This document shows positions 8,628-21,826 of a stretch of 64,000 nt of DNA, piece after piece (the first letter of the stretch is position 1; each line of letters starts with the position of its first letter). Under the pieces are notes generated by a model. The model had not been told where the DNA came from and searched no databases. It saw only the letters and a program-made list of their open reading frames with translations. The DNA comes from Fibrobacter succinogenes (GTDB lineage: Bacteria; Fibrobacterota; Fibrobacteria; Fibrobacterales; Fibrobacteraceae), in contig CADCDO010000024.1 of NCBI GenBank assembly GCA_902800345.1, positions 1 to 64,000 on the forward strand, given 5' to 3'. The position numbers and the translations under genes were made by a program.

Positions 8628-11600
8628 ATGACAAAGAATCATGTCCTTCATCCATTCCGTTCGCTCCGTTTGGGGCTTGTGCTCATCTTTACCCTGCTTA
8701 TGGCGGCAAATTCGTGGGGATATATCTTTTATATTAACGAAAACGGAGAAAGGGAGCCCGTATCTCTTTTTAATTATCTCTCAAAAGACATTGACCATAT
8801 GACGCTTATGCAGAATAACGGTATTTATGTGGTATATGACACCGTAGATCTGGGTGATAAGAATATCGGGTTCGAGGGTAGTATCAAGATTATTTTAATG
8901 GATGGAGCTTATTTAAACTGCAACAAATTATATTATAAAAAAGATTTAGGACTTTCAGATGTTCCTTCTATATCCATTTTCGTAGGATCAACTAGCTACA
9001 ATAAACCCATTTTAGGTACGGGTGTATTAAATGTCAAAAATGGTATTGACCCTACTACAGCATCTAATGTCTCTATAGCTATTTATGGCGGTCACGTCAC
9101 AACGGATTATAATAATCCTAAAAACGATAGTCATAAAGATAATGTACGCATAGATGTTCAAAATTTTGAATTTCATGGTGGTAATGTCGATGTAGAAGAA
9201 CTTGACGCAACATCGATTACGCTTGGTTGGAAAAATCCCACAGATTCTTTTAGAGTGCGCAATGTAATTCATGCAAACACCTTCACCATAAAGAATGATT
9301 TATACGTCAAGGATGAAAACGGCAAATTTTACAGCGGCCAATTATCTGTTGACAATATTTATAGCATCCTAGACAAAACACTTGTGCCCGCAAAGACTCC
9401 TTTCTTCTACATGGACGAAAACGGAGTCGAGCGAAGTGTTGAGGATTATGTCATCCTCGATACACTTTTACCGAAAGTTCAGAAGGATCCTTATTCCAAT
9501 GATCGTTTCGTGTATTTGCCGAGTGGCTGGTATGTAGTGCGCGATCGTGTAACTTTTGAGGGTCAAATTTACTTTAGGGAAGACGAAGGCGATGCTAACC
9601 TTATCATTGCGGATAATGCCGAATTTAACGTTGTGGAGTATGAAAAGGATATTCTCTTCGGTATAAAAAGCCAAGGAAACTTGAATATTTATGGTCAGAA
9701 GAATGGCTCTGGAAAATTGAATGTTTATAGTCAGAAGGGTAGCTATGAATACGTACAAGGTGATATAGGTGCAGGAAGGAATAAAGATCTTATTATAAAC
9801 GGAATTTCCGTGAAAGTAGGTGGTCAATTGTTTGCTAGTAATGGTCGTGTTATATTTAACGGTGGTTCTTACGATGTTGGTAGAGTTGAGTCTGGTTCAA
9901 TCACTTTGGATTGGCGTAAAAAAACTGATTCCATCAAAGTTGGAATGTTTATCGTGGCTGGTGGTCATCAACCGGGGAGTTTTGTTCAAATAGCCGAAGG
10001 CAAAGCCTTTGGAGATGAAGACGGCAAAGCCTATACCGGTAAAGTCTATTCGACGGAAACCGTATATGATGAGAATTGGAAAAAGGATGAATATTTAAGC
10101 TCGCTTAACGGCAAGACACTTAAGCCGTGCTATGCGGTTACATTCCAAGCGCTGAACGGCACGGAACCTGTGGTTGCTGCAGCGACCTTCAACGAACAAG
10201 GCTATGCCAACATTGCTGAGCCGCCGGCTCCAACCCGCAACGGATCCAAGTTTTATCGCTGGTCCACCACTGAAGATGGCACAAGGGGATATTTTTTCAA
10301 TATCCCTGTCACTGAAAATATGACCCTCTTTGCCCAATGGAACAAAGACAGGCTTGAATATATTGACGAAAATGGTCAATCTCAATCTCTAAATAGTTAT
10401 ACCGTGCTCACAAGCGACCTTATCAAAGCCAACGAAGAAGATGGCGTCGTCAACCTCCCGGGCGCTTGGTATGTGGTGCATAATACTTTCTACGATAGCG
10501 TAGACGTTTATGTTGAGGATTACACGCTCTCGTTTGATGGTGATGCGCATATCATCCTTGCGGATGGTGCAGAAATGAAACTAGAAACAGTTGAAAAAAC
10601 AGTAATCCAGACTGCAGGCAACTTGTCGATTTACGGACAGGCGCTTGGTACGGGTACGCTGACTGTTTATAATTCGTCTAATACAATTTGTCCCGTTGTT
10701 GTCAATGGGAATTTGAGCATTAACGGAGGGAATATCTCCATAAGAAATGGTGGTCTCGATGGATACAGTGCTGTAGATGCATCTGGATACGTCTACATCA
10801 ACAGCGGTATTGTGGAAATCTCCTCTAACATCGACAAAAATTCTTTGAAAAAAACAATCAATACTGGTAAGGGTATTTTATTTGATTGGCACAGTGCAAA
10901 AGACCGTTATACGTTAGGTCGGGGAACCAGCGCTTCTATTGCTATGGATAAGTGGTTTAAAGATGAATATGGCAATGTTTATAAACTCTATGATTTGTAC
11001 AACTTATTTTATACTGATAAAAATTTGTTCGATCAACTTATTCTTGATAAAACCATATTGCCATGCTATGTCGTGTCCGTCAATTTCCAGGATGGTAGCA
11101 TGCCAAAGAAAGTTGCTACATCCTTTGACGAAAATGGCGTGGCGCACGTTACAAAGCCCGAAGATCCGACCCGCGTAGGAACAACATTTGTCGGATGGGC
11201 TGCTACGAAAGAAGGCACCAAGGTATTTGACTGGTCCGCTCCTATTTCTGGCAATACAACAGCCTATGCAATATGGGATGATATGAAGCCTGTTGAATAT
11301 GTCGATGAAAATGGCAAAATACAGGAAGTGACTGAATATTTCTTGCTTACAAGCGATATCGGCGAACCACATGAAGATAATGATCTAAAATTAACCGGAG
11401 GATGGTATGTTGTGCAAGGTGAAGTGACCTTCTCAAATGAGGCTTTAGAATCACTCTCATTCAGTGATGATGTTCACCTTATCCTTGCTGACGGCGCCAA
11501 ACTCAATGTTGAAGCGCAAAATATGCATTTCGGTGATGGTCTCTATATTCACACGCAATCGCGTGGCACGGGTTCGTTCAAAGCCAAAGAACTTGGGATT

Positions 11601-13082
11601 TATGAGAATTTGTGTATTTATGGTGGTAATTTCACTTTTGATATTATTTCAGTATATGGAACTACGATCATCAATGGCGGTAATATAAACGTAGATCAAT
11701 TCTATGCTAATGATTTAGTGATAAATGGAGGCTCCGTAGATGCATCAATGATGGAAGGATGGTCAGTCACTTTAGGTTGGAGTTCCACCGATGATCATAT
11801 TACCGCGGAGGAACTCCGTATAGCACAATCTAGCACCTCCACGGCCATTAATATTGCCGAAGGTAAAGCATTTAGGGATGAAGATGGCAAAATTTATGAT
11901 GAGTCTATACCCGTTAGTTTTTATGGATCTGCACTCAGTGGCAAGATGCTTACCCCTCTAAAGTGGATTACAAGTGAGGATATCGTTGTCGACGACATTG
12001 CTGTTCAGGCATACACGGGCTATTCCATTTGCCCCGAGGTGGTTGTGAAGGACGGCAAAAAGACGCTTGAAGTCAAGAAGGACTACACCGTGGAATGTTT
12101 TGAAAATGTGGAAAAATCTTCGACCGCTCCTTATGCAAAAATTACAGGCATGGGTATATATGGTGGCGAAATTGAAAAGCATTTTGCTATTCTCGATAAG
12201 TCCGCCGATTACGCCGCTGTCGGAATCTTCAAGGACGAAGACGGTCATTCGATTGCTTCCATCGATGGAAATTACGGTGAAGACGGATCCGTGAATATCG
12301 ACGAAGAAATTACGGTCGATTCTGTTATATTTGAACGCAGCTTCTTGAAAAACACGCGCTCTACTATCGTCTTGCCGTTCAGCGTAAGCACGAGCCAAAT
12401 CAAGGGACTGAAAGAAGTCCTTGCATTCGGCAAAATCGTGGTGGAAAACGGCCAAAAGGCTGTCGGCATGAATACCGTCTGGGACAACACTTCGTCTGAA
12501 CATGTAACATTGAACGCCTACACTCCGTATATCGTGCTGATGGATGGCGAAAAGCTGGATATCAGCGGTGCCGTGACGCTCGAAGTCACGAGGGACGCTG
12601 TTGACGCCGGTATCGAAGAAAACTCGGAATGGGAATTCCGTGGAAGCTTAGGTTACAAGAAATGGGCAGATGGCGATCCGGAACTGGGTAGCATTTACGG
12701 ATTTGCCGCATCTTCTGACGAAGATCTGCACATAGAAGTGGGCGATTTCGTCAGGGCCGCCGCCGGCGCATGGATTGTCCCGATGCGTGCTTACCTTGTC
12801 AAGAAGCCTTCCGCTTCGACAGTCCGTGCTAGCGGCGCCTATGCTGCAAGAACGGCTGCAAGTCCTGTCGAGGATTTGCCGGAACGCATGTCCATCGTGA
12901 TTATCAAGAACGACGAAAATGTGGAGAACGGCGAACATACGACCGTTATCGGACAGTTCAATACCCGTACAGCTCCGTTCCATGTGAACTTTATGCCGCG
13001 TACCTACGACCTCAAGGGACGTTTTGTAGGGAATGGTCGCAAGGCTAAGGGCGTGTACTACGGAAAGAAGGTGATGAAGTAG
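8628..13082 (+). CDS. Large secreted protein with four repeated modules and InlB-type repeats
   Basis: This 1484-aa protein has a signal peptide (hydrophobic about 13-29) and AAGGAGG upstream. It contains four copies of a roughly 250-300-residue module. Each opens with Y.(D/N)ENG (near residues 33, 258, 575 and 888), runs through GGWYVV and LILADGA and then a beta-rich NLSIYGQ..GTGTL stretch. Modules 2 and 3 are followed by Listeria-Bacteroides (InlB B-type) repeats ending GWAATKEGT-type. The C-terminus reads YDLKGRFVGNGRKAKGVYYGKKV, a tail shared by many exported Fibrobacter proteins and reminiscent of type IX secretion tails. It probably lies outside the cell or on the surface. The beta-helix-like modules suggest adhesion or structure, but no enzyme motif is visible. 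Confidence 0.8.
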   Translation: MTKNHVLHPFRSLRLGLVLIFTLLMAANSWGYIFYINENGEREPVSLFNYLSKDIDHMTLMQNNGIYVVYDTVDLGDKNIGFEGSIKIILMDGAYLNCNKLYYKKDLGLSDVPSISIFVGSTSYNKPILGTGVLNVKNGIDPTTASNVSIAIYGGHVTTDYNNPKNDSHKDNVRIDVQNFEFHGGNVDVEELDATSITLGWKNPTDSFRVRNVIHANTFTIKNDLYVKDENGKFYSGQLSVDNIYSILDKTLVPAKTPFFYMDENGVERSVEDYVILDTLLPKVQKDPYSNDRFVYLPSGWYVVRDRVTFEGQIYFREDEGDANLIIADNAEFNVVEYEKDILFGIKSQGNLNIYGQKNGSGKLNVYSQKGSYEYVQGDIGAGRNKDLIINGISVKVGGQLFASNGRVIFNGGSYDVGRVESGSITLDWRKKTDSIKVGMFIVAGGHQPGSFVQIAEGKAFGDEDGKAYTGKVYSTETVYDENWKKDEYLSSLNGKTLKPCYAVTFQALNGTEPVVAAATFNEQGYANIAEPPAPTRNGSKFYRWSTTEDGTRGYFFNIPVTENMTLFAQWNKDRLEYIDENGQSQSLNSYTVLTSDLIKANEEDGVVNLPGAWYVVHNTFYDSVDVYVEDYTLSFDGDAHIILADGAEMKLETVEKTVIQTAGNLSIYGQALGTGTLTVYNSSNTICPVVVNGNLSINGGNISIRNGGLDGYSAVDASGYVYINSGIVEISSNIDKNSLKKTINTGKGILFDWHSAKDRYTLGRGTSASIAMDKWFKDEYGNVYKLYDLYNLFYTDKNLFDQLILDKTILPCYVVSVNFQDGSMPKKVATSFDENGVAHVTKPEDPTRVGTTFVGWAATKEGTKVFDWSAPISGNTTAYAIWDDMKPVEYVDENGKIQEVTEYFLLTSDIGEPHEDNDLKLTGGWYVVQGEVTFSNEALESLSFSDDVHLILADGAKLNVEAQNMHFGDGLYIHTQSRGTGSFKAKELGIYENLCIYGGNFTFDIISVYGTTIINGGNINVDQFYANDLVINGGSVDASMMEGWSVTLGWSSTDDHITAEELRIAQSSTSTAINIAEGKAFRDEDGKIYDESIPVSFYGSALSGKMLTPLKWITSEDIVVDDIAVQAYTGYSICPEVVVKDGKKTLEVKKDYTVECFENVEKSSTAPYAKITGMGIYGGEIEKHFAILDKSADYAAVGIFKDEDGHSIASIDGNYGEDGSVNIDEEITVDSVIFERSFLKNTRSTIVLPFSVSTSQIKGLKEVLAFGKIVVENGQKAVGMNTVWDNTSSEHVTLNAYTPYIVLMDGEKLDISGAVTLEVTRDAVDAGIEENSEWEFRGSLGYKKWADGDPELGSIYGFAASSDEDLHIEVGDFVRAAAGAWIVPMRAYLVKKPSASTVRASGAYAARTAASPVEDLPERMSIVIIKNDENVENGEHTTVIGQFNTRTAPFHVNFMPRTYDLKGRFVGNGRKAKGVYYGKKVMK

Positions 13083-13287: not shown

Positions 13288-13311
13288 AATCCCCCCTGTG
13301 GGGATTTTTCT
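13288..13311. terminator. Terminator between the secreted repeat protein region and lysE
   Basis: AATCCCC-CCTGT-GGGGATT followed by TTTC on the + strand, with an A-run on the other side. It can act for both convergent units. A separate GUCA...UGAC hairpin with a GCAA loop lies at about 13103-13128. Confidence 0.7.
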
Positions 13312-13314
13312 CCA

Positions 13315-13911
13315 CTACCGCACAATTCCAATGGCACAGTACAGTAGCGAGAGTCCCATAAGCGTGTAGAATATTCTGTGGTGCTTTTGGAATAGTCCTT
13401 GCAGTAGAAAGCCTGCGAAAAGCCATGCTAAATTGCAGATGGGACCTGTAAGCGGCAAAAACAAGCCGAGAAGGAATAAATGCGGAAAATCTTGGTGGTA
13501 GGGGAGCATGTAGGTCGTGATTGCCGAGAGGCAGAACACCATGATTTTGACGTTCGTGAGTTGCACGAAAAGCCCGGTGCGGAAGCTACCGGTTGTGCTG
13601 TTATTGCGGAGTTCTCCGAGTGGCTTGAACGCCTGAATTAAAAGGCTTGTGGCGAGGTATGCGATGTAAATTGCGCCAACGAATGAAAATATTTCAATGA
13701 AATTTTCAAACGCACTGCTGATAAAATAAACAATAAAAACCGATACTAGCGAGACAATCGTGTATCCGGTGAAAAGACCGTACCATTGCCTTATCGCTAT
13801 ACTTTTCCCGCTGCCCATCGCTACCGATAGCGAACAGAGATTAGCGGGGCCCGGGGTGATTCCCGAGACAAGCGCATAAAGTAAAAAAGAAAGTGCAATT
13901 TCTAATGTCAT
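13315..13911 (-). CDS. LysE/RhtB-family amino-acid exporter
   Basis: The 198-aa protein has the six membrane segments of LysE-type exporters and the family motif near the N-terminus (SGITPGPANLCSLSVAMGSG; G-x-x-P-G-P). LysE, RhtB and RhtC members pump out basic amino acids, homoserine, threonine or cysteine derivatives. It is the last gene of a four-gene minus-strand operon (metY, methyltransferase, cupin, this gene; 18-base gap to the cupin). The context suggests the cargo is a homoserine- or methionine-related compound made by those enzymes; this is inference. Confidence 0.82.
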   Translation of the reverse strand: MTLEIALSFLLYALVSGITPGPANLCSLSVAMGSGKSIAIRQWYGLFTGYTIVSLVSVFIVYFISSAFENFIEIFSFVGAIYIAYLATSLLIQAFKPLGELRNNSTTGSFRTGLFVQLTNVKIMVFCLSAITTYMLPYHQDFPHLFLLGLFLPLTGPICNLAWLFAGFLLQGLFQKHHRIFYTLMGLSLLYCAIGIVR

Positions 13912-13929
13912 TTAACCTTTTGTAGCTCC

Positions 13930-14532
13930 TTACACATATTTCGAAAGCGTTTTGACATCTTTCCCGCTCCACGTGTAAAGCGCTAGCATCGGTTCGTGTT
14001 CGGTCTGCATGGAGTGTACGTGATTGGATGGATGCAGCACAAATTCACCAGGACCGCGGACTTTTGAGATTCCGTCTAGTGTCCAGATGGCGTGTCCGGA
14101 CAGAATGACGTACAGTTCTGTGGCGGGGTGCAAGTGAGAAGGGTAAAAAGTGTTTTTGCCGAGGAGCGTAAAGCCGAAACAGAAATGCTCGTCGTGGTAG
14201 GGAGCTTCAGGGCCGAGGATTTCTCCCCATCCCATTTGATTTGCCAAATCGGGCATGTCGGGGCGCGGATCGTAATTGTATTTCCACGGCAAATAGGGGA
14301 GGGCGGGCTTGAGTGCTTTCAGCAATTCTTCTGTTTCGGGCGATCCGTGCTTGATGGCATCTTCGATGTAGCGGATTAACGGCGAGTCGCTTTTTTCGAA
14401 TGTGCCAACAGGTTTAGGAATGTCTCGAACGGCGAAATTGGCGGCTTCGAGCCCGATTTTATCGTCGATTTTGGCTCTCTTGAAAAGGAACTTTTGGGAT
14501 TCTTCAATTAGATTGTAGATAACGTTTTTCAC
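13930..14532 (-). CDS. DMSP-lyase-like (DddL/DddQ-type) cupin
   Basis: This 200-aa protein resembles the DddL/DddQ lyases that split dimethylsulfoniopropionate into dimethylsulfide and acrylate. An N-terminal helical part leads into LPWKYNY (about 81-87), then a C-terminal cupin with probable metal ligands His133 and His135 (SHLHPATELY), Glu139, Tyr141 and a His in the HPSNHVH stretch (about 171-173). The ligand pattern is complete. It starts at GTG 14532, seven bases after the methyltransferase. Substrate is unproven; the operon points to a methionine-derived sulfonium compound such as S-methylmethionine as an alternative to DMSP. Confidence 0.65.
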   Translation of the reverse strand: MKNVIYNLIEESQKFLFKRAKIDDKIGLEAANFAVRDIPKPVGTFEKSDSPLIRYIEDAIKHGSPETEELLKALKPALPYLPWKYNYDPRPDMPDLANQMGWGEILGPEAPYHDEHFCFGFTLLGKNTFYPSHLHPATELYVILSGHAIWTLDGISKVRGPGEFVLHPSNHVHSMQTEHEPMLALYTWSGKDVKTLSKYV

Positions 14533-14539
14533 GGAGCCT

Positions 14540-15496
14540 CTATTTTAAACTTGATTTTAGCACGGCAACGGTATGGCCGATGACTTCGCCTTTTTTGAAT
14601 GCTTCGTATGCGGCGGTTGCAGAAAGTTTTGCGGAGTCGAGCGATTCTTCAATTTCAAAAGCGCGGCTGCCAGAATCCTTGACGGAAACGTTTGCGAATG
14701 CTTTTTGCAAATCATCAGCGCGGTAGAATCTAAACGGGCCGAGGCCTGCTTTTTCTTGTGCGGCGTATCCCGAAATCACATCTTCAGGCTCAGCTTGGAC
14801 TTTCCAGGAATACGTGAAAATTTCGGAATGGAGCCCAGCCAATTCTCCGAGCTTGATGAATGCGCTGAGCGGAACGCGTCCACCGAGCGTTGAATAGACG
14901 GCTCCGTTTTGTGACAAGTAATCGCGCGCTTGCTTGAGCGCGAGGTAATGCAAGTCGAGCATTTGCTCGTGAACGAATTCGGGAATCAGCTCTATGCGTT
15001 TTTCCAAGTAATGGCCACTGTTGCGTTTGTCTTCAATCTTTGTGTTATTTGCGAGCGGCACGTTGGGGAGGTTTTCGTAAATGACATCGTAATTTCGTTT
15101 GCCGTTTTGGAGCGGTTGCAAAAGGTCGCCATCGCCAAATTCAAATTCGATGTTGTTGATTTTTAAGTTGTTCCTAACGTTCTGTGCAGCGGCGGCGACA
15201 ACGCTTCTTTGCAAATCTGTGAAACCTACGCGCTTTGCCCCTAAAAGCTCAATGCCGGTCAATACGTCAATGCCAGAACCTGTGCCGATGGAAACGAATG
15301 AATCAACATCGTGACCCAGTTTTTCACGAATCAGCTTGAATGCGGGGGCTGCAATGTAGGCAACCCAGTCGCTTTTAATGTCTTCGGTTTTGGGCAAGTA
15401 GGCGTGATCGGCGACTTCAATAGAAAGATAATCTTTGATGTGCTTTGTCGCGTCGTTCAATGCAAGGTATTTATTGACATCTACAATTATACTCAT
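14540..15496 (-). CDS. SAM-dependent methyltransferase resembling methionine S-methyltransferase
   Basis: The 318-aa protein has a class I methyltransferase core: motif I VSIGTGSGIDVLTG (about 87-100), an acidic motif II (RVGFTDLQ), and an NLPNVP element in the position of the NPP(Y/F) active-site loop. A later LGGRVPLS...WKVQAEPEDVIS stretch resembles the N-terminal methyltransferase domain of plant methionine S-methyltransferase, whose bacterial counterpart (MmtN) has similar length. HemK-like or N-methyltransferase activity is the alternative. Its ATG overlaps the metY stop (TAATG), so the two are translationally coupled. Confidence 0.6.
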   Translation of the reverse strand: MSIIVDVNKYLALNDATKHIKDYLSIEVADHAYLPKTEDIKSDWVAYIAAPAFKLIREKLGHDVDSFVSIGTGSGIDVLTGIELLGAKRVGFTDLQRSVVAAAAQNVRNNLKINNIEFEFGDGDLLQPLQNGKRNYDVIYENLPNVPLANNTKIEDKRNSGHYLEKRIELIPEFVHEQMLDLHYLALKQARDYLSQNGAVYSTLGGRVPLSAFIKLGELAGLHSEIFTYSWKVQAEPEDVISGYAAQEKAGLGPFRFYRADDLQKAFANVSVKDSGSRAFEIEESLDSAKLSATAAYEAFKKGEVIGHTVAVLKSSLK

Positions 15497-16851
15497 TACT
15501 TACCGCCTTTGGTGCTTGCTGCAATAGCTTGTTCAAAGTCTGCGATGATGTCGCGCGGGTCTTCGATGCCCACGGATACGCGGATCATATCGTCAGGGAT
15601 GCCAGCGGCGAGTCTGTCTTTTGGCGAAAGCTGAGAATGCGTGCTTGTAGCCGGATGCAAAACGCTTGTGCGGGCATCGCCCACGTGAACGACTAAGGCG
15701 GCGACTTTCAATGCTTTGACAAACGAACGGATGGCCGCTTTGCCGCCCTTGAGGCCGAAGGTAAGCACGCCGCTACCGCCTTGATAATCAAAGTATTTGC
15801 GGATGCGCTTGAAATACGGGCTAGATTTGAGTCCCGGATAGCTGACCCAATTTACGGCCGGATGCTTGGACAAGAATTCTGCCAATGCGAGGGCGTTGTT
15901 GCTGTGTTGCGGCATTCGCAAGTGGAGCGTTTCAAGGCCCAAATTTAAAAGGAATGCGTTGAACGGGCTTAGTGCGGCTCCGAAATCGCGCAAAAATTGA
16001 GCGCGAGCTTTCGCGATAAATGCGGCACGTCCAAATTTTTGAGTATAGGAAGTGTTTGCGTATTGAGCGTCCGGTTCCACGAGGTCCGGGAATTTTCCGT
16101 TTTCCCAGTTGTAATTACCGCCGTCAATGACGACACCGCCGAGCGCAACGGCATGACCGTCAATGTACTTTGTTGCAGAATGGATGACGACGTTTGCGCC
16201 GAGTTTCAAAGGCTTCACGAGGAATGGCGTTGCGAGCGTGTTGTCGACGAGAAACGGAACGTCAAATTCCTTGGCGAGCTTGGAGAACTTTTCAAAGTCC
16301 AAAACGCCCAAGGCGGGGTTGCCAATCGTTTCGCCGAAAATGAGTTTGGTGCTCGGACGGAATGCTTTGCGGAGTTCCGCAATGGAATCTTCCGGGTCGA
16401 TGAACGTCGTTTCAATGCCGAGCTTGGAAAGTCTCACGCTGAGCAATGTGTAGCTGCCGCCGTAAATGTTCTTGCTTGCAACGATGTGGTCGCCTGCTTT
16501 CACGAGGTTCGAAATCGCGAGGAGGACTGCGGCTTGCCCCGATGCGGTGGCGACGGCGCCCGCGCCGCCTTCGAGTTCCGTAATCTTGCTTTCGAAAGCG
16601 GCTACGGTCGGGTTCCCTGTGCGGGTGTATTTATTGCCCGATTGTTTGAGTGCAAAGAGTCGTTCCACTTCGTCAACGTCTTCGTACTTGTAAGTCGTGG
16701 ATTGGAAAATCGGGAGCACGCGCGGCTCGCCAATCTTGGGCTTCCAGCCAGCCTGTAAACACTTTGTTGCAAAATTCCATGTGCTCGGATCGGTAACGTT
16801 TGCGGTATTCTTTGCGGATTCGGTTTTCTTTTTGGATGAAGTCTTTGTCAT
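15496..16851 (-). CDS. metY: O-acetylhomoserine aminocarboxypropyltransferase (sulfhydrylase)
   Basis: A PLP enzyme of the Cys/Met metabolism family, making homocysteine (or methionine from methanethiol) from O-acetylhomoserine. It has the glycine-rich and PLP-phosphate region ATASGQAAVLLAI, the Tyr/Arg NKYTRTGNPTV motif and the PLP lysine in HSATKYIDGHA. I start at ATG 16851, behind AGAGGAG, giving 451 residues with a short Lys/Ser/Thr-rich extension before the domain; an upstream in-frame start would add 29 unsupported residues. It leads the metY-methyltransferase-cupin-lysE operon. No SAM riboswitch was recognised upstream. Confidence 0.9.
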   Translation of the reverse strand: MTKTSSKKKTESAKNTANVTDPSTWNFATKCLQAGWKPKIGEPRVLPIFQSTTYKYEDVDEVERLFALKQSGNKYTRTGNPTVAAFESKITELEGGAGAVATASGQAAVLLAISNLVKAGDHIVASKNIYGGSYTLLSVRLSKLGIETTFIDPEDSIAELRKAFRPSTKLIFGETIGNPALGVLDFEKFSKLAKEFDVPFLVDNTLATPFLVKPLKLGANVVIHSATKYIDGHAVALGGVVIDGGNYNWENGKFPDLVEPDAQYANTSYTQKFGRAAFIAKARAQFLRDFGAALSPFNAFLLNLGLETLHLRMPQHSNNALALAEFLSKHPAVNWVSYPGLKSSPYFKRIRKYFDYQGGSGVLTFGLKGGKAAIRSFVKALKVAALVVHVGDARTSVLHPATSTHSQLSPKDRLAAGIPDDMIRVSVGIEDPRDIIADFEQAIAASTKGGK

Positions 16852-16989
16852 TTTTATACTCCTCTTTAGCAAATAATTGCTCTTGAATAATTCTATTTGT
16901 ACGGCGAAAATATAGAACGGAACTATTACCTTGTCCAATACTAAATAAATATGGTGAGTTATAGAATTAATTTATTGGTAATACTTGGG

Positions 16990-17400: not shown

Positions 17401-17513
17401 GCAATCGTTAGCAATTAGAATTATTTATAGGTCTCCGAGTGCTGCGTTTTGAAGTGCAAAAATACAGGGCAAATGTCAGCAATCGTCTCCATAAAATTCT
17501 TATATTTCGGGTC

Positions 17514-18077
17514 ATGGCATTATCAGCAAATATTACACGTGAAGGAGCGCTTGAACTCCTCAAAAAATACAACAAGGATCCGTTCCACCTTGAACATGGC
17601 GAAATCGTAGAGAAAACGTTGCGTTACTTTGCTCGTGAACTGGGCTACGGCGAAGACGAAGAATTCTGGGGAATTGTCGGTCTCTTGCACGATCTCGATT
17701 TTGAATTGTGGCCGGAACAGCATTGCATCAAGGAACGCGATTTGATGCAAGAGGCGGGGCTTTCGGAAGAGTTGATTCATGCGACAACGAGCCACGGTTG
17801 GTCCATCACGGTGGATGTCAAGCCTGAACACGAAATGGAAAAAGTGCTTTATGCCGTTGACGAACTCACAGGCTTGATTGGCGCGGTCGTTTTGATGCGT
17901 CCGTCCAAGAGCGTGCAGGATTTGGAGATGAAATCCGTCTTGAAAAAGTACAAGTCCCCGAAATTTGCGGCGGGCTGCTCTCGCGAAGTCATTGAACGCG
18001 GCGCGAACCTCCTCGGTTGGGAACTGAACGACCTCATTTCCCGAACCATCGCTGCTTTGAAAACCTTCAGACCGTAA
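17514..18077 (+). CDS. HD-domain protein
   Basis: From ATG 17514 this 187-aa protein shows an HD-type metal-dependent phosphohydrolase fold: His in LEHGEIVEKTLRYFARELG, the doublet in GLLHDLDFE, His residues in HATTSHGW, and a final Asp in AVDELTGLIGAVVLMRPSK. This subfamily (about 185 aa, often annotated hydrolase) has no assigned substrate; related HD enzymes hydrolyse nucleotides or phosphoesters. An earlier in-frame ATG at 17439 would add 25 residues with no similarity to the domain. It stands alone. Confidence 0.75.
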   Translation: MALSANITREGALELLKKYNKDPFHLEHGEIVEKTLRYFARELGYGEDEEFWGIVGLLHDLDFELWPEQHCIKERDLMQEAGLSEELIHATTSHGWSITVDVKPEHEMEKVLYAVDELTGLIGAVVLMRPSKSVQDLEMKSVLKKYKSPKFAAGCSREVIERGANLLGWELNDLISRTIAALKTFRP

Positions 18078-18786: not shown

Positions 18787-20382
18787 TTAGGAATTCGTCG
18801 CGACCTTCACTTCTTCGATCTTCTTGAGGACGGAGCCATCTTCCATCGCCTTCATGGCCATTTCGAAGCCTTCCTTGACGCTTGCGGCTTTCTTGCTGAT
18901 GTAGAGGGCGGCACCGGCGTTCAGGGCGCAGGCATACTTGATGCCAGGGCGGCCCTTGCCGTTCAGCACGTCGAGAGCGAGGTTGAAGTTGTCCACGCCC
19001 GTACCGCCAGCGAGGTCTTCGGGGTCCACAGCCGGGACGCCGAATTCCTTCGGGTCGATGCGGTATTCGCGATATTCACCATCTTCCAAGATTTCGGCAA
19101 TGGTCGTCGGAACGCACGGAGAGATTTCATCGTAGCCGTCATCGGAAATGGCGACCATCACGCGCTTGGCGCCGAGGGCCTTTGCAGCCTTGGTGAACGG
19201 TTCCAGAATCGACTTGCTGTAAACGCCGAGCATGAGGTACTTGGCTTCGGCCGGGTTCGTGAGGGGGCCGAGCAGGTTCATGATGGTCTTCACGCCGAGG
19301 GCACCACGAACCGGGCCGGCAAAGCGCATGGCGCTGTGGTAGACCGGAGCCATGAGGAACACGAAGTTCGTCTTGTCGATGACGCTGGCGGCTTTTTCCG
19401 GAGTCATGTCGAGCTTGAAGCCGGCTGCGGTGTAGAAGTCGGCGGCGCCGGACTTGCTCGAAACAGCGCGGTTGCCGTGCTTGGCAATCTTGGCGCCACA
19501 GCTTGCAGCGATAAGACCGGAGAGAGAGCTCACGTTGAAGCTGCCCTTGCCGTCGCCACCGGTACCCACGATGTCGGTGAGTTCGTCACCGCTGTAGGGG
19601 AACTTGCGCTTCTTGCTGCTGAGCACCTTGGCGCAGCCCGCGATTTCTTCGGTCACGGGCCCCTTGCTGGAAAGTGCGGTAAGGATAGCGGCCATCTGGC
19701 GTTCGTCCATGATGCCGTCGGTCAGGTCTTCCATGAACATTTCGGCGGTTTCGCGGGTCAAGTCCTTGCCCGCGGTAAGCGTGTTCAGGATTCCGCGAAT
19801 GTCGAGCGGTTCGCGACGGTAGTTGAGGAAAGCCTTGAAGAATTCGTCGGCGCGGCCACTGGCAATCGATTCCGGGTGGAACTGCACGCCTTCAATCGGG
19901 AGAGTCTTGTGGCGAATGCCCATGATGTCACCGTCGGTAGCGCGGGCGGTCACTTCGAAATCGCTCGGAAGCGTTGATTCGTCGATGACCAAGCTGTGGT
20001 AACGCGTAAAGATATTCTTCTTGCCGATGGTGCGGAAGAGGCCCTTGCCGTCGAGGTCGATTTCTTCGGCAATGCCGTGCTTGATAAACTTAGCCTGCAC
20101 AATCTTGGCACCGAAGGCATAACCGATAGCCTGATGGCCGAGGCACACGCCGAGAATCGGGAGCTTGCCCGCAAAGTGCTTGATGGCTTCCACGGAGATG
20201 CCGGCGTCTTCGGGGCGGCCCGGGCCCGGGCTCACGATGAGGCGGCTCGGGTTCAGCTTTTCAATGTCGGCGACGGTGCATTCGCGGCTACGGAGCACGC
20301 GGATTTCTTCAGTGGTAATCTTGGCCAACGCTTGGTAAACGTTGTAAGTAAAAGAGTCGTAGTTATCGATAATGACGATCAT
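18787..20382 (-). CDS. trpGD: Anthranilate synthase glutaminase fused to anthranilate phosphoribosyltransferase
   Basis: A 531-aa fusion in tryptophan synthesis. Residues 1 to about 190 are a class I glutamine amidotransferase with catalytic Cys (GVCLGHQ) and the His-Glu pair (VQFHPES); it feeds ammonia to TrpE. Residues about 200-531 are TrpD with GTGGDGKGSFNVSS and KHGNRAVSS, which bind PRPP and anthranilate. I start at ATG 20382 (IVIIDNYDSFTYNV), behind AAGGAG; a longer open frame upstream only reads through the damaged trpE. TrpE stop and this start are separated by one base. Confidence 0.93.
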   Translation of the reverse strand: MIVIIDNYDSFTYNVYQALAKITTEEIRVLRSRECTVADIEKLNPSRLIVSPGPGRPEDAGISVEAIKHFAGKLPILGVCLGHQAIGYAFGAKIVQAKFIKHGIAEEIDLDGKGLFRTIGKKNIFTRYHSLVIDESTLPSDFEVTARATDGDIMGIRHKTLPIEGVQFHPESIASGRADEFFKAFLNYRREPLDIRGILNTLTAGKDLTRETAEMFMEDLTDGIMDERQMAAILTALSSKGPVTEEIAGCAKVLSSKKRKFPYSGDELTDIVGTGGDGKGSFNVSSLSGLIAASCGAKIAKHGNRAVSSKSGAADFYTAAGFKLDMTPEKAASVIDKTNFVFLMAPVYHSAMRFAGPVRGALGVKTIMNLLGPLTNPAEAKYLMLGVYSKSILEPFTKAAKALGAKRVMVAISDDGYDEISPCVPTTIAEILEDGEYREYRIDPKEFGVPAVDPEDLAGGTGVDNFNLALDVLNGKGRPGIKYACALNAGAALYISKKAASVKEGFEMAMKAMEDGSVLKKIEEVKVATNS

Positions 20383-20383
20383 C

Positions 20384-21826
20384 TTAGTTTTCTCCTTCGA
20401 GCACGGCGCGGATGGCACCCAGTTTCTCATTCGTTTCTTCAAATTCGCGGTCGGCATTCGAGGCCGCGACAATGCCACCACCGGCCTGCAGGCTGATGGT
20501 CTTGCCCTGCTTGAGGCAGCAACGGCCGCACCGGCGTAGAAGCGGCGCTTGACCTTTTCGAGGCCAGAAAGAATTTCAATCGCGCTGATTTTCGGGGCGC
20601 CACTCACCGTACCAGCCGGGAAGCTGGAGCGCAGCACTTCAATCGCCTTCTTGTTCTTCGCCACACGGCCCTGCACGTCAGAGACCAGGTGAATCACGTG
20701 GCTGAACTTTTCGCATTCCATGTACTTGGTGGTTTCCACCGTACCGGCTTCGCAGACGCATGTACTTGGTGGTTTCCACCGTACCGGCTTCGCAGACGCG
20801 GCCGAGGTCGTTACGGGCCAGGTCCACGAGCATCAAGTGTTCGGCGCGTTCCTTCGGGTCGCCCTTCAGGTTCTTCATCAAGGCTTCGTCTTCCACGTCA
20901 TCCTTACCGCGGCGGCGAGTGCCTGCAATCGGGTGAATCGTAGCGATACCGTCACGCACACGCACCAAGCTCTCCGGCGATGCACCGATAAACTGATGCG
21001 TGCCGTAATCGAGGAAGAACATGTACGGGGACGGGTTCACCGTGCGGAGGCGGCGGTAAATGTCGAGCGCTTCGATATCGCTTGCAAACTGGATGCGGCG
21101 AGAAGGCACGGCCTGCACGATGTTGCCGGCGATGATATGCTTCTGCAAGGCTTCGACCTTTTCGGTGTATTCCTTGCGGGACTGTTCCAGGTCGGTCATG
21201 GTGATGCCCTTGCCGTACTGCGGTTCGGGGGCGAGGTAGCTGAAGTCGAGGTCAGCAAGGCGAGCCTTCACCTTTTCAATGGCGGCCTTCAAGTCAATCT
21301 GGTGTTCTTCGTAGTTCAGTGCGAACAAATGAAGTTTTTCGGTGAAGTGGTCAAACACAATGTAAATGTGACCCACCAGGAATTCAGCTTCGGGAATGTT
21401 GAGTTCGTCCACCTGCGGGGCAAGGCGAATCGTATCGCAGCGGGCACAGAATTCATAGCCGAGGTAGCCCACGCCCGAAGAGGGAATAGGAATCTGGTTA
21501 GGCGGCACCGTGTTTTCGGCAGAAATCAGCGTGAGCGCATCGAGAATATCGCCCTCGCCTTCCTTGAGGAACGTGCTTTCCTTGCCGTCGATAATGATGC
21601 TCACGTCCTTCTCGTTCTGGCGCAGACGGAAGCCTTCGTCTACCATCAAGGTAGAGTAGCGGCTACGGCCGTGCGAGAAGCTTGCCGATTCGAAGATAGC
21701 CTTCGCGCCGAGCTTCTTGCCGAGCGAAAACGGGGTGTAACGTTCACCGGGCAGCGCCACGTAGATGCTGTCGGTACGGGGTTCGAAATTCGGGCTTTCG
21801 GTGATGTGCCTTATGTTCGTTGTCAT
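20384..21826 (-). pseudogene. trpE: Anthranilate synthase component I, disrupted by two out-of-frame lesions
   Basis: The first 355 or so codons are a normal TrpE (chorismate-using synthase): GNIVQAVPSRRIQF, GASPESLVRVRDG, IAGTRRRGKD, HLMLVDLARNDLGRV. At 20720-20799 a 40-base segment is duplicated in perfect tandem, which shifts the frame and ends translation early. Beyond it the sequence resumes in another frame (YMECEKFSHVIHLVSDVQG, FPAGTVSGAPK). A second lesion near 20515 fuses FYAGA to CLKQGKTISLQAGGGIV, dropping the usual GY...C.xIRT segment (about 17 residues) and shifting frame again. The tail then reads normally to TAA at 20384. Either the gene is dead or both are assembly errors. Confidence 0.85.
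20720..20799. repeat. Perfect 40-bp tandem duplication inside trpE
   Basis: The 40 bases beginning ATGTACTTGGTGGTTTCC occur at 20720-20759 and again at 20760-20799. Forty is not a multiple of three, so the second copy shifts the trpE frame. Confidence 0.95.

Follow-up and report, generated by a model that had tools for sequence, protein, structure and literature searches.

A co-inherited MetY paralog, MMT/MmtN-like methyltransferase and DMSP-lyase-like cupin in Fibrobacter: a possible module for making and cleaving a methylsulfonium compound

Dimethyl sulfide can arise outside the dimethylsulfoniopropionate (DMSP) pathway by the MddA route, in which sulfide and methanethiol are methylated and the free thiol receives the methyl group directly. 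The cupin lyases described so far act on DMSP or on dimethylsulfoxonium propionate (DMSOP), and the methionine S-methyltransferase (MMT) known as MmtN has been described together with DMSP, nonribosomal peptide synthetase (NRPS) or homocysteine methyltransferase (HMT) genes (PMC9135737). The residues essential in the cupin lyase DddQ are established (PMC4437653), and in the mechanism given for DddK the carboxylate is held on the metal, a tyrosine abstracts the alpha proton and the C-beta–S bond is cleaved (PMC10686828). Here we consider a locus in a stretch of 64,000 nucleotides from Fibrobacter succinogenes (contig CADCDO010000024.1 of assembly GCA_902800345.1; hereafter the window), in which a metY gene, a methyltransferase gene (MT), a gene for a DMSP-lyase-like cupin and a lysE-family gene follow one another. 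The parts appear to be distant members of known families, and it is their co-inherited combination that appears to be new. In the open-access literature searched, an MMT-type enzyme in linkage with a DMSP-lyase-like cupin was not encountered, which does not prove that none exists.

We looked for MT and the DMSP_lyase cupin across 168 Fibrobacterota genomes; both turned up in the same 32, of which 30 belong to the window's genus and two to a second genus of Fibrobacteraceae. The first-pass annotation of the window had taken separation of the genes in relatives as telling against its proposal; in all 32 Fibrobacteraceae genomes with either gene, MT and cupin are adjacent and on the same strand, neither occurring alone in the family, and this linkage is far beyond chance. 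Five genomes of other Fibrobacterota families gave cupin matches that were weak and partial only. A 392-genome set, with about 220 genomes added from other phyla, held no further MT at an expectation value (E) of 1e-7 and gave weak cupin-only matches, and a scan of all genome contigs with two narrow peptides returned Fibrobacter only, distant relatives elsewhere being possible. Plasmid and viral contigs yielded no MT or no MT–cupin pair, and comparison with PHROGs gave no match.

The metY of the operon encodes a cysteine/methionine-type pyridoxal phosphate (PLP) enzyme that scores well above the 495-bit cut-off of TIGR01326, has 8SF5 as its best solved relative and, like the MetY proteins 8SF5 and 7KB0, retains the canonical active-site motifs in alignment (the PLP lysine in SATK, and YTRTGNPT). 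A housekeeping MetY, 52–54% identical to it, is present in all 29 genomes tested, and the operon gene is, by sequence, a distinct paralog other than this copy, which we call MetY-II. Its orthologs (89–98% identity) occur in 16 of the 17 genomes carrying the MT–cupin pair, the window's own included, and in none of the 12 non-carriers; unlike MetY as otherwise described, it is thus an extra paralog confined to pair carriers. The sole carrier without it is the single-contig genome G159, where MT is broken by an insertion sequence (IS) element, and in one further genome (G030) metY-II is retained about 40 kb from MT. Carriers are scattered among non-carriers in the housekeeping MetY tree, which as a one-gene tree is indicative only, and about six presence/absence switches are counted for the pair and for MetY-II. 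Since the carriers are patchy on the tree and MetY-II is limited to them, metY-II, MT and the cupin gene have been gained or lost as a set and are inherited together. In G159 (G159:C1, L073:7948-10384 and L125) it is an ISL3-family transposase gene that splits MT, with about 10 MT bases repeated at the junction.

The fourth gene of the proposed operon did not follow the other three. LysE orthologs (85–100%) are present in 7 of the 17 pair-positive genomes and in none of the 12 pair-negative ones; LysE as a core member was rejected on the first of these counts, and the exporter is an optional accessory neighbour. Its score lies above the PF01810 cut-off, and with NCBIfam PRK10323 it reaches 97.8 bits, under the cut-off of 193. 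At some carrier loci (L075, L089, L090 and L091; not in the window's lineage) cupin and LysE are separated by a BioB-like (biotin synthase) radical S-adenosylmethionine (SAM) protein and a small membrane protein whose tail is rich in His.

For MT, family libraries returned the class I SAM fold and no specific family, and neither the single sequence nor a profile gave a specific match among PDB sequences. We compared MT with an MMT/MmtN profile whose rows were R. indicus, R. lusitanum, Rhodovulum, the bacterial MMT of genome G195 and Arabidopsis MMT. The last is a sequence that we take to be that of the plant enzyme; it was used as bait and also contributed a row to the profile, and its match to MmtN 7VVV had an E of 5e-7. 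The profile comparison (hhalign) gave E 6e-7 over 218 columns and reached the C-terminal end, where the final block reads LSATAAYEAFKKGEVIGHTVAVLK in MT and LRAATALGWLQAGNPIWHEVAVWE in MMT/MmtN. The C-terminal part alone gave 25.2 with MMT/MmtN, against a column-shuffled mean of 11.5 (standard deviation 2.1, maximum 19.4, n = 200), whereas PrmC aligned with the same part over just 28 columns. A first AlphaFold model, built on an alignment of 12 close orthologs, had a predicted local distance difference test score (pLDDT) of 42; the model used for Foldseek, for which one MMT row and five of PrmC were aligned with 20 MT sequences, had a pLDDT of 69, which is moderate confidence, and a predicted template modelling score (pTM) of 0.74.

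Searched against the PDB, this second model returned 1949 matches, of which ranks 1 to 9 are all nine MmtN chains (7VVV/7VVW/7VVX, from Roseovarius indicus), with E from 4e-12 to 4e-10, probability 1.00 and template modelling (TM) scores of 0.48–0.59, and rank 10 is a carbamoyl N-methyltransferase (3e-9); this result is independent of the plant sequence. The comparison with MmtN by structure prediction that the first-pass annotation had called for thus came out in its favour. The model has the overall MmtN/MMT fold of a cap and a Rossmann-like domain, and MT shares with these enzymes the order of motifs from GxGxG to a C-terminal (L)SA..A...(G)..I.HEV/HTV block, together with the ribose-binding Asp and the GxR(V/P) and Q...E elements. 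The GxGxG motif is GTGSG at residues 71–75 and the SAM-ribose Asp69 of MmtN corresponds to Asp94, both invariant. Because the top nine structural matches are all MmtN and the profile similarity runs through the MMT-specific C-terminus, we assign MT by fold and C-terminus to the MMT/MmtN type, as a predicted and very divergent relative. In contrast to this likeness, identity to MmtN is about 20–25%. At Arg132 of MmtN, which contacts the methionine sulfur, MT has Lys153 (invariant in 12 orthologs), and Glu250, which contacts methionine from the adjacent monomer, falls in a gap of the alignment. The gene context also differs, MT standing with a lyase-like cupin and metY rather than with the DMSP-synthesis, NRPS or HMT genes of MmtN.

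The cupin is a member of Pfam DMSP_lyase (PF16867) far above the curated cut-off of 27 bits, and it matches DddQ 4LA2 at E 2.7e-16. Tyr130, His133, His135, Glu139, Tyr141, His173 and Trp188 are invariant in 20 orthologs and correspond, in the same order, to DddQ Tyr120, His123, His125, Glu129, Tyr131, His163 and Trp178, so that the metal set previously read from the window (His133, His135, Glu139 and Tyr141) was correct. It further resembles DddQ (4LA2/5JSO) in its length of about 200 aa and in an N-terminal extension before the barrel. It is unlike DddQ in coming from gut bacteria, in standing always beside an MMT-like gene, in having Ser or Ala for DddQ Trp122 and in the absence of linked DMSP metabolism genes. 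We regard it as a DddQ-type DMSP-lyase-like protein with the full known catalytic set, for which lyase activity is predicted.

Taken together, the full-length similarity of MT to MMT/MmtN, the complete DddQ set, the all-or-none occurrence of the pair, the restriction of MetY-II, the repeated switches and the sulfur-related neighbours speak for a single module of methionine metabolism that makes and cleaves a methylsulfonium, probably S-methylmethionine on the way to dimethyl sulfide; we put this forward tentatively, as the reading we favour though short of probable. MT would transfer a methyl group from SAM to the sulfur of an amino acid of the thioether type, most likely methionine, to give a methylsulfonium such as S-methylmethionine. 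By means of a divalent metal and its catalytic tyrosine, the cupin would then cleave this sulfonium and so release a volatile thioether, of which dimethyl sulfide is the likeliest. The second product would have four carbons, for example homoserine (or its lactone) or 1-aminocyclopropane-1-carboxylate (ACC). MetY-II would convert O-acetylhomoserine to homocysteine and hence methionine, and could recycle the carbon skeleton. The net effect would be that sulfide or surplus methionine sulfur leaves the cell, together with methyl groups, as dimethyl sulfide. The sulfur and methyl groups would thus end in the same product as in the MddA route, with the difference that the trio would methylate an amino acid and then cleave it. 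The narrower proposition, in which the cupin is itself an S-methylmethionine lyase whose homoserine skeleton can be recycled by a dedicated MetY, giving a dimethyl sulfide route that starts from sulfide and methionine and involves neither DMSP nor MddA, is doubtful. A plant-type S-methylmethionine cycle was also considered and rejected as unlikely because a stand-alone homocysteine methyltransferase (HMT/MmuM) is absent from the genome, whose sole PF02574 match lies inside a 1239-aa MetH-like frame.

Several observations weigh against this reading. In MT, Cys121 of MmtN (SAM carboxylate) is replaced by Asn142 and Glu127 (methionine) by Leu148, and the phosphate pocket of the MmtN trimer, Pro169/Arg183, aligns with Val175/Lys188. 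At E 0.001, a four-row MMT profile (A2) picked out other methyltransferases in the genome that encodes MT but missed MT itself, and over the Rossmann core of MT, PrmC-type enzymes equal or outscore MMT/MmtN. The alignment behind the model held one bacterial MMT row, and the model is poor at residues 1–48 and 146–177, substrate loops included. In G159 the cupin is intact while MT is broken and MetY-II is missing. DddQ-type chemistry, finally, removes the proton alpha to the carboxylate and breaks the C-beta–S bond, whereas the sulfonium of S-methylmethionine is on C-gamma. With other residues in place of Cys121, Glu127, Pro169 and Arg183 and a lysine in place of Arg132, MT is not an ortholog of MmtN, and the first four replacements leave methionine unproven as its substrate; the resemblance to MMT/MmtN noted in the first-pass annotation stands for fold and C-terminus. 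Similarly, because the sulfur is on C-gamma, DddQ-like beta-elimination cannot alone split S-methylmethionine, and its cleavage by the cupin, in itself doubtful, would require formation of a lactone or cyclopropane (ACC), or hydrolysis, failing which the substrate would be another compound. Of the earlier route from methionine through S-methylmethionine to dimethyl sulfide, the gene unit, the type of MT and the cupin set are retained, and the fit of the cleavage chemistry is doubtful.

Another thioether substrate, with its sulfur beta to the carboxylate, remains a serious rival and a strong competitor to S-methylmethionine, even if we consider it somewhat improbable in itself. The logic of the module would be the same, MT methylating the compound and the cupin beta-eliminating it. 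Candidates would be, for example, 3-methylthiopropionate, S-methylcysteine or S-(2-carboxyethyl)homocysteine, built by MetY-II or accepted by MT, and the products would be dimethyl sulfide or methionine with acrylate or dehydroalanine, in the service of sulfur salvage or detoxification. Such a substrate would retain the established cupin mechanism of alpha-proton abstraction by Tyr and C-beta–S cleavage (PMC10686828) and would account for the replaced methionine-binding residues of MT and for the need of a special MetY paralog. However, the linked genes are those of ordinary methionine and cysteine metabolism, and the MMT/MmtN relatives studied to date methylate methionine (PMC9135737).

An unlikely alternative is that MT methylates N or O in an unrelated small molecule or in a protein, that the cupin is among the members of its family that are not sulfonium lyases, and that the linkage to metY-II has to do with some other amino-acid product, exported by LysE. 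Motif IV of MT, NLPN, resembles that of PrmC, N(L/P)PY, more than that of MmtN, CLPQ, and the DMSP-lyase-like family includes enzymes of unknown function, to go by the title of Lei et al. (2018) as cited in PMC6302742. However, Foldseek places MmtN above all N- or O-methyltransferases, the fourth position of motif IV is an amide (Asn in MT, Gln in MmtN) and not the aromatic residue of N-methyltransferases, and the similarity to MMT extends to the C-terminus, where that to PrmC ends after its short alignment.

Lower still is the chance that MT performs the first step of DMSP synthesis, with later enzymes encoded elsewhere, and that the cupin genuinely cleaves DMSP, either DMSP of the cell's own making or DMSP from feed. 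MmtN does make S-methylmethionine en route to DMSP in marine bacteria (PMC9135737), and the cupin has all the DddQ catalytic residues; against this, no decarboxylase, amine oxidase or aldehyde dehydrogenase was recognised beside the pair in 21 neighbourhoods, the habitat is the gut, and building and cutting DMSP within one operon would have no clear use. That MT is an azetidine-2-carboxylate synthase of the AzeJ/VioH kind, cyclising SAM rather than methylating, is suggested by a methyltransferase-fold enzyme beside methionine genes and an amino-acid exporter, but it is hardly credible and was rejected, for MT is without PFNxxGN and RxxYYxxC, has GxGxG and not GxxxG (PMC11794875), and the listed top 50 structural matches include no AzeJ entry.

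The genome of the window (labelled G000) comprises 4.27 Mb in 103 contigs, and its nearest relatives are Fibrobacter metagenome-assembled genomes, for several of which sheep rumen compartments are given as the origin. The four open reading frames (ORFs) were confirmed on the minus strand, 16851 to 13315, with overlap and gaps as first annotated (Table 1): metY-II and MT share one base (TAATG), and gaps of 7 bp and 18 bp separate MT from cupin and cupin from LysE. Promoter-like and terminator-like sites from consensus scans, whose counts in the region are not above those of shuffled sequence, are so placed that they would fit a single transcription unit from metY to lysE, and no known riboswitch was found at the operon.

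Table 1. Features of the metY-II locus, in window coordinates.
Feature	Position	Strand	Basis
metY-II, predicted O-acetylhomoserine sulfhydrylase paralog, 451 aa	15496..16851	-	TIGR01326, 559 bits
MT, predicted divergent MMT/MmtN-fold SAM-dependent methyltransferase, 318 aa	14540..15496	-	Foldseek, hhalign
Cupin, predicted DddQ/DMSP-lyase-like metallo-cupin, 200 aa, GTG start	13930..14532	-	PF16867, 90.6 bits
LysE-family exporter, nearest named family EamB (cysteine/O-acetylserine), accessory	13315..13911	-	PF01810, 35.4 bits
Promoter-like site TGGACA-17-TATATT upstream of metY-II	16909..16937	-	Consensus scan, 10/12 matches
Terminator-like hairpin just 3' of lysE	13288..13306	-	Consensus scan

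Elsewhere the neighbours of the pair include a divergent metK, cysE, a cysK/CGS-type pair (a cys-type PLP enzyme and cysK), an NMT1-type binding protein and PdxR/PdxS/PdxT, and the setting appears to be mostly one of sulfur amino-acid metabolism, the names metK, cysE, PdxR/S/T and ThiF having been assigned from reading the sequences rather than by family search. In one lineage (L083-L088, L092) the pair stands beside an ABC transporter, the NMT1-type binding protein, the divergent metK, a ThiF-like protein and PdxR/PdxS/PdxT, and in a further lineage (L076-L079, L081, L082) a serine hydrolase of RBBP9/YdeN type adjoins metY-II, MT and cupin, a similar gene lying near the pair in G159 (L073:5100-5639). 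The MMT of G195:C43 (L101, L124:4993-8154), a 9-Mb genome of another phylum, is long and plant-like, with an open frame of more than 1000 aa, and no lyase-like cupin was found near it. In the window itself, an HD-domain hydrolase-like gene (17439-18077, plus strand) lies upstream of metY and divergent from it, and stays beside metY-II across the window's lineage. A long ORF at 18787-20739 (minus strand) reads as a TrpG-TrpD fusion of the glutaminase part of anthranilate synthase and anthranilate phosphoribosyltransferase. Downstream of the operon and convergent with it is a 1484-aa ORF (8628-13082, plus strand) whose start resembles a signal peptide and which carries several similar repeats, InlB-like segments among them; its product has the look of a secreted or surface protein.

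The proposal is directly testable, since genomes that carry the trio and genomes that lack it both occur naturally, as does one whose MT is interrupted by an IS element. If it is true, the DMSP-lyase-like cupin of unknown function would possibly have a first substrate, and there would be an MMT-type enzyme that serves neither DMSP synthesis nor the plant S-methylmethionine cycle. The rumen fibre-degrading Fibrobacter that bear the trio may both form and cleave methylated sulfur compounds by a hitherto undescribed route. Such a gene set would allow an amino-acid sulfonium to be made and cleaved away from the sea, by bacteria on which fibre digestion in ruminants depends in important part, and would provide a genetic source of rumen dimethyl sulfide.

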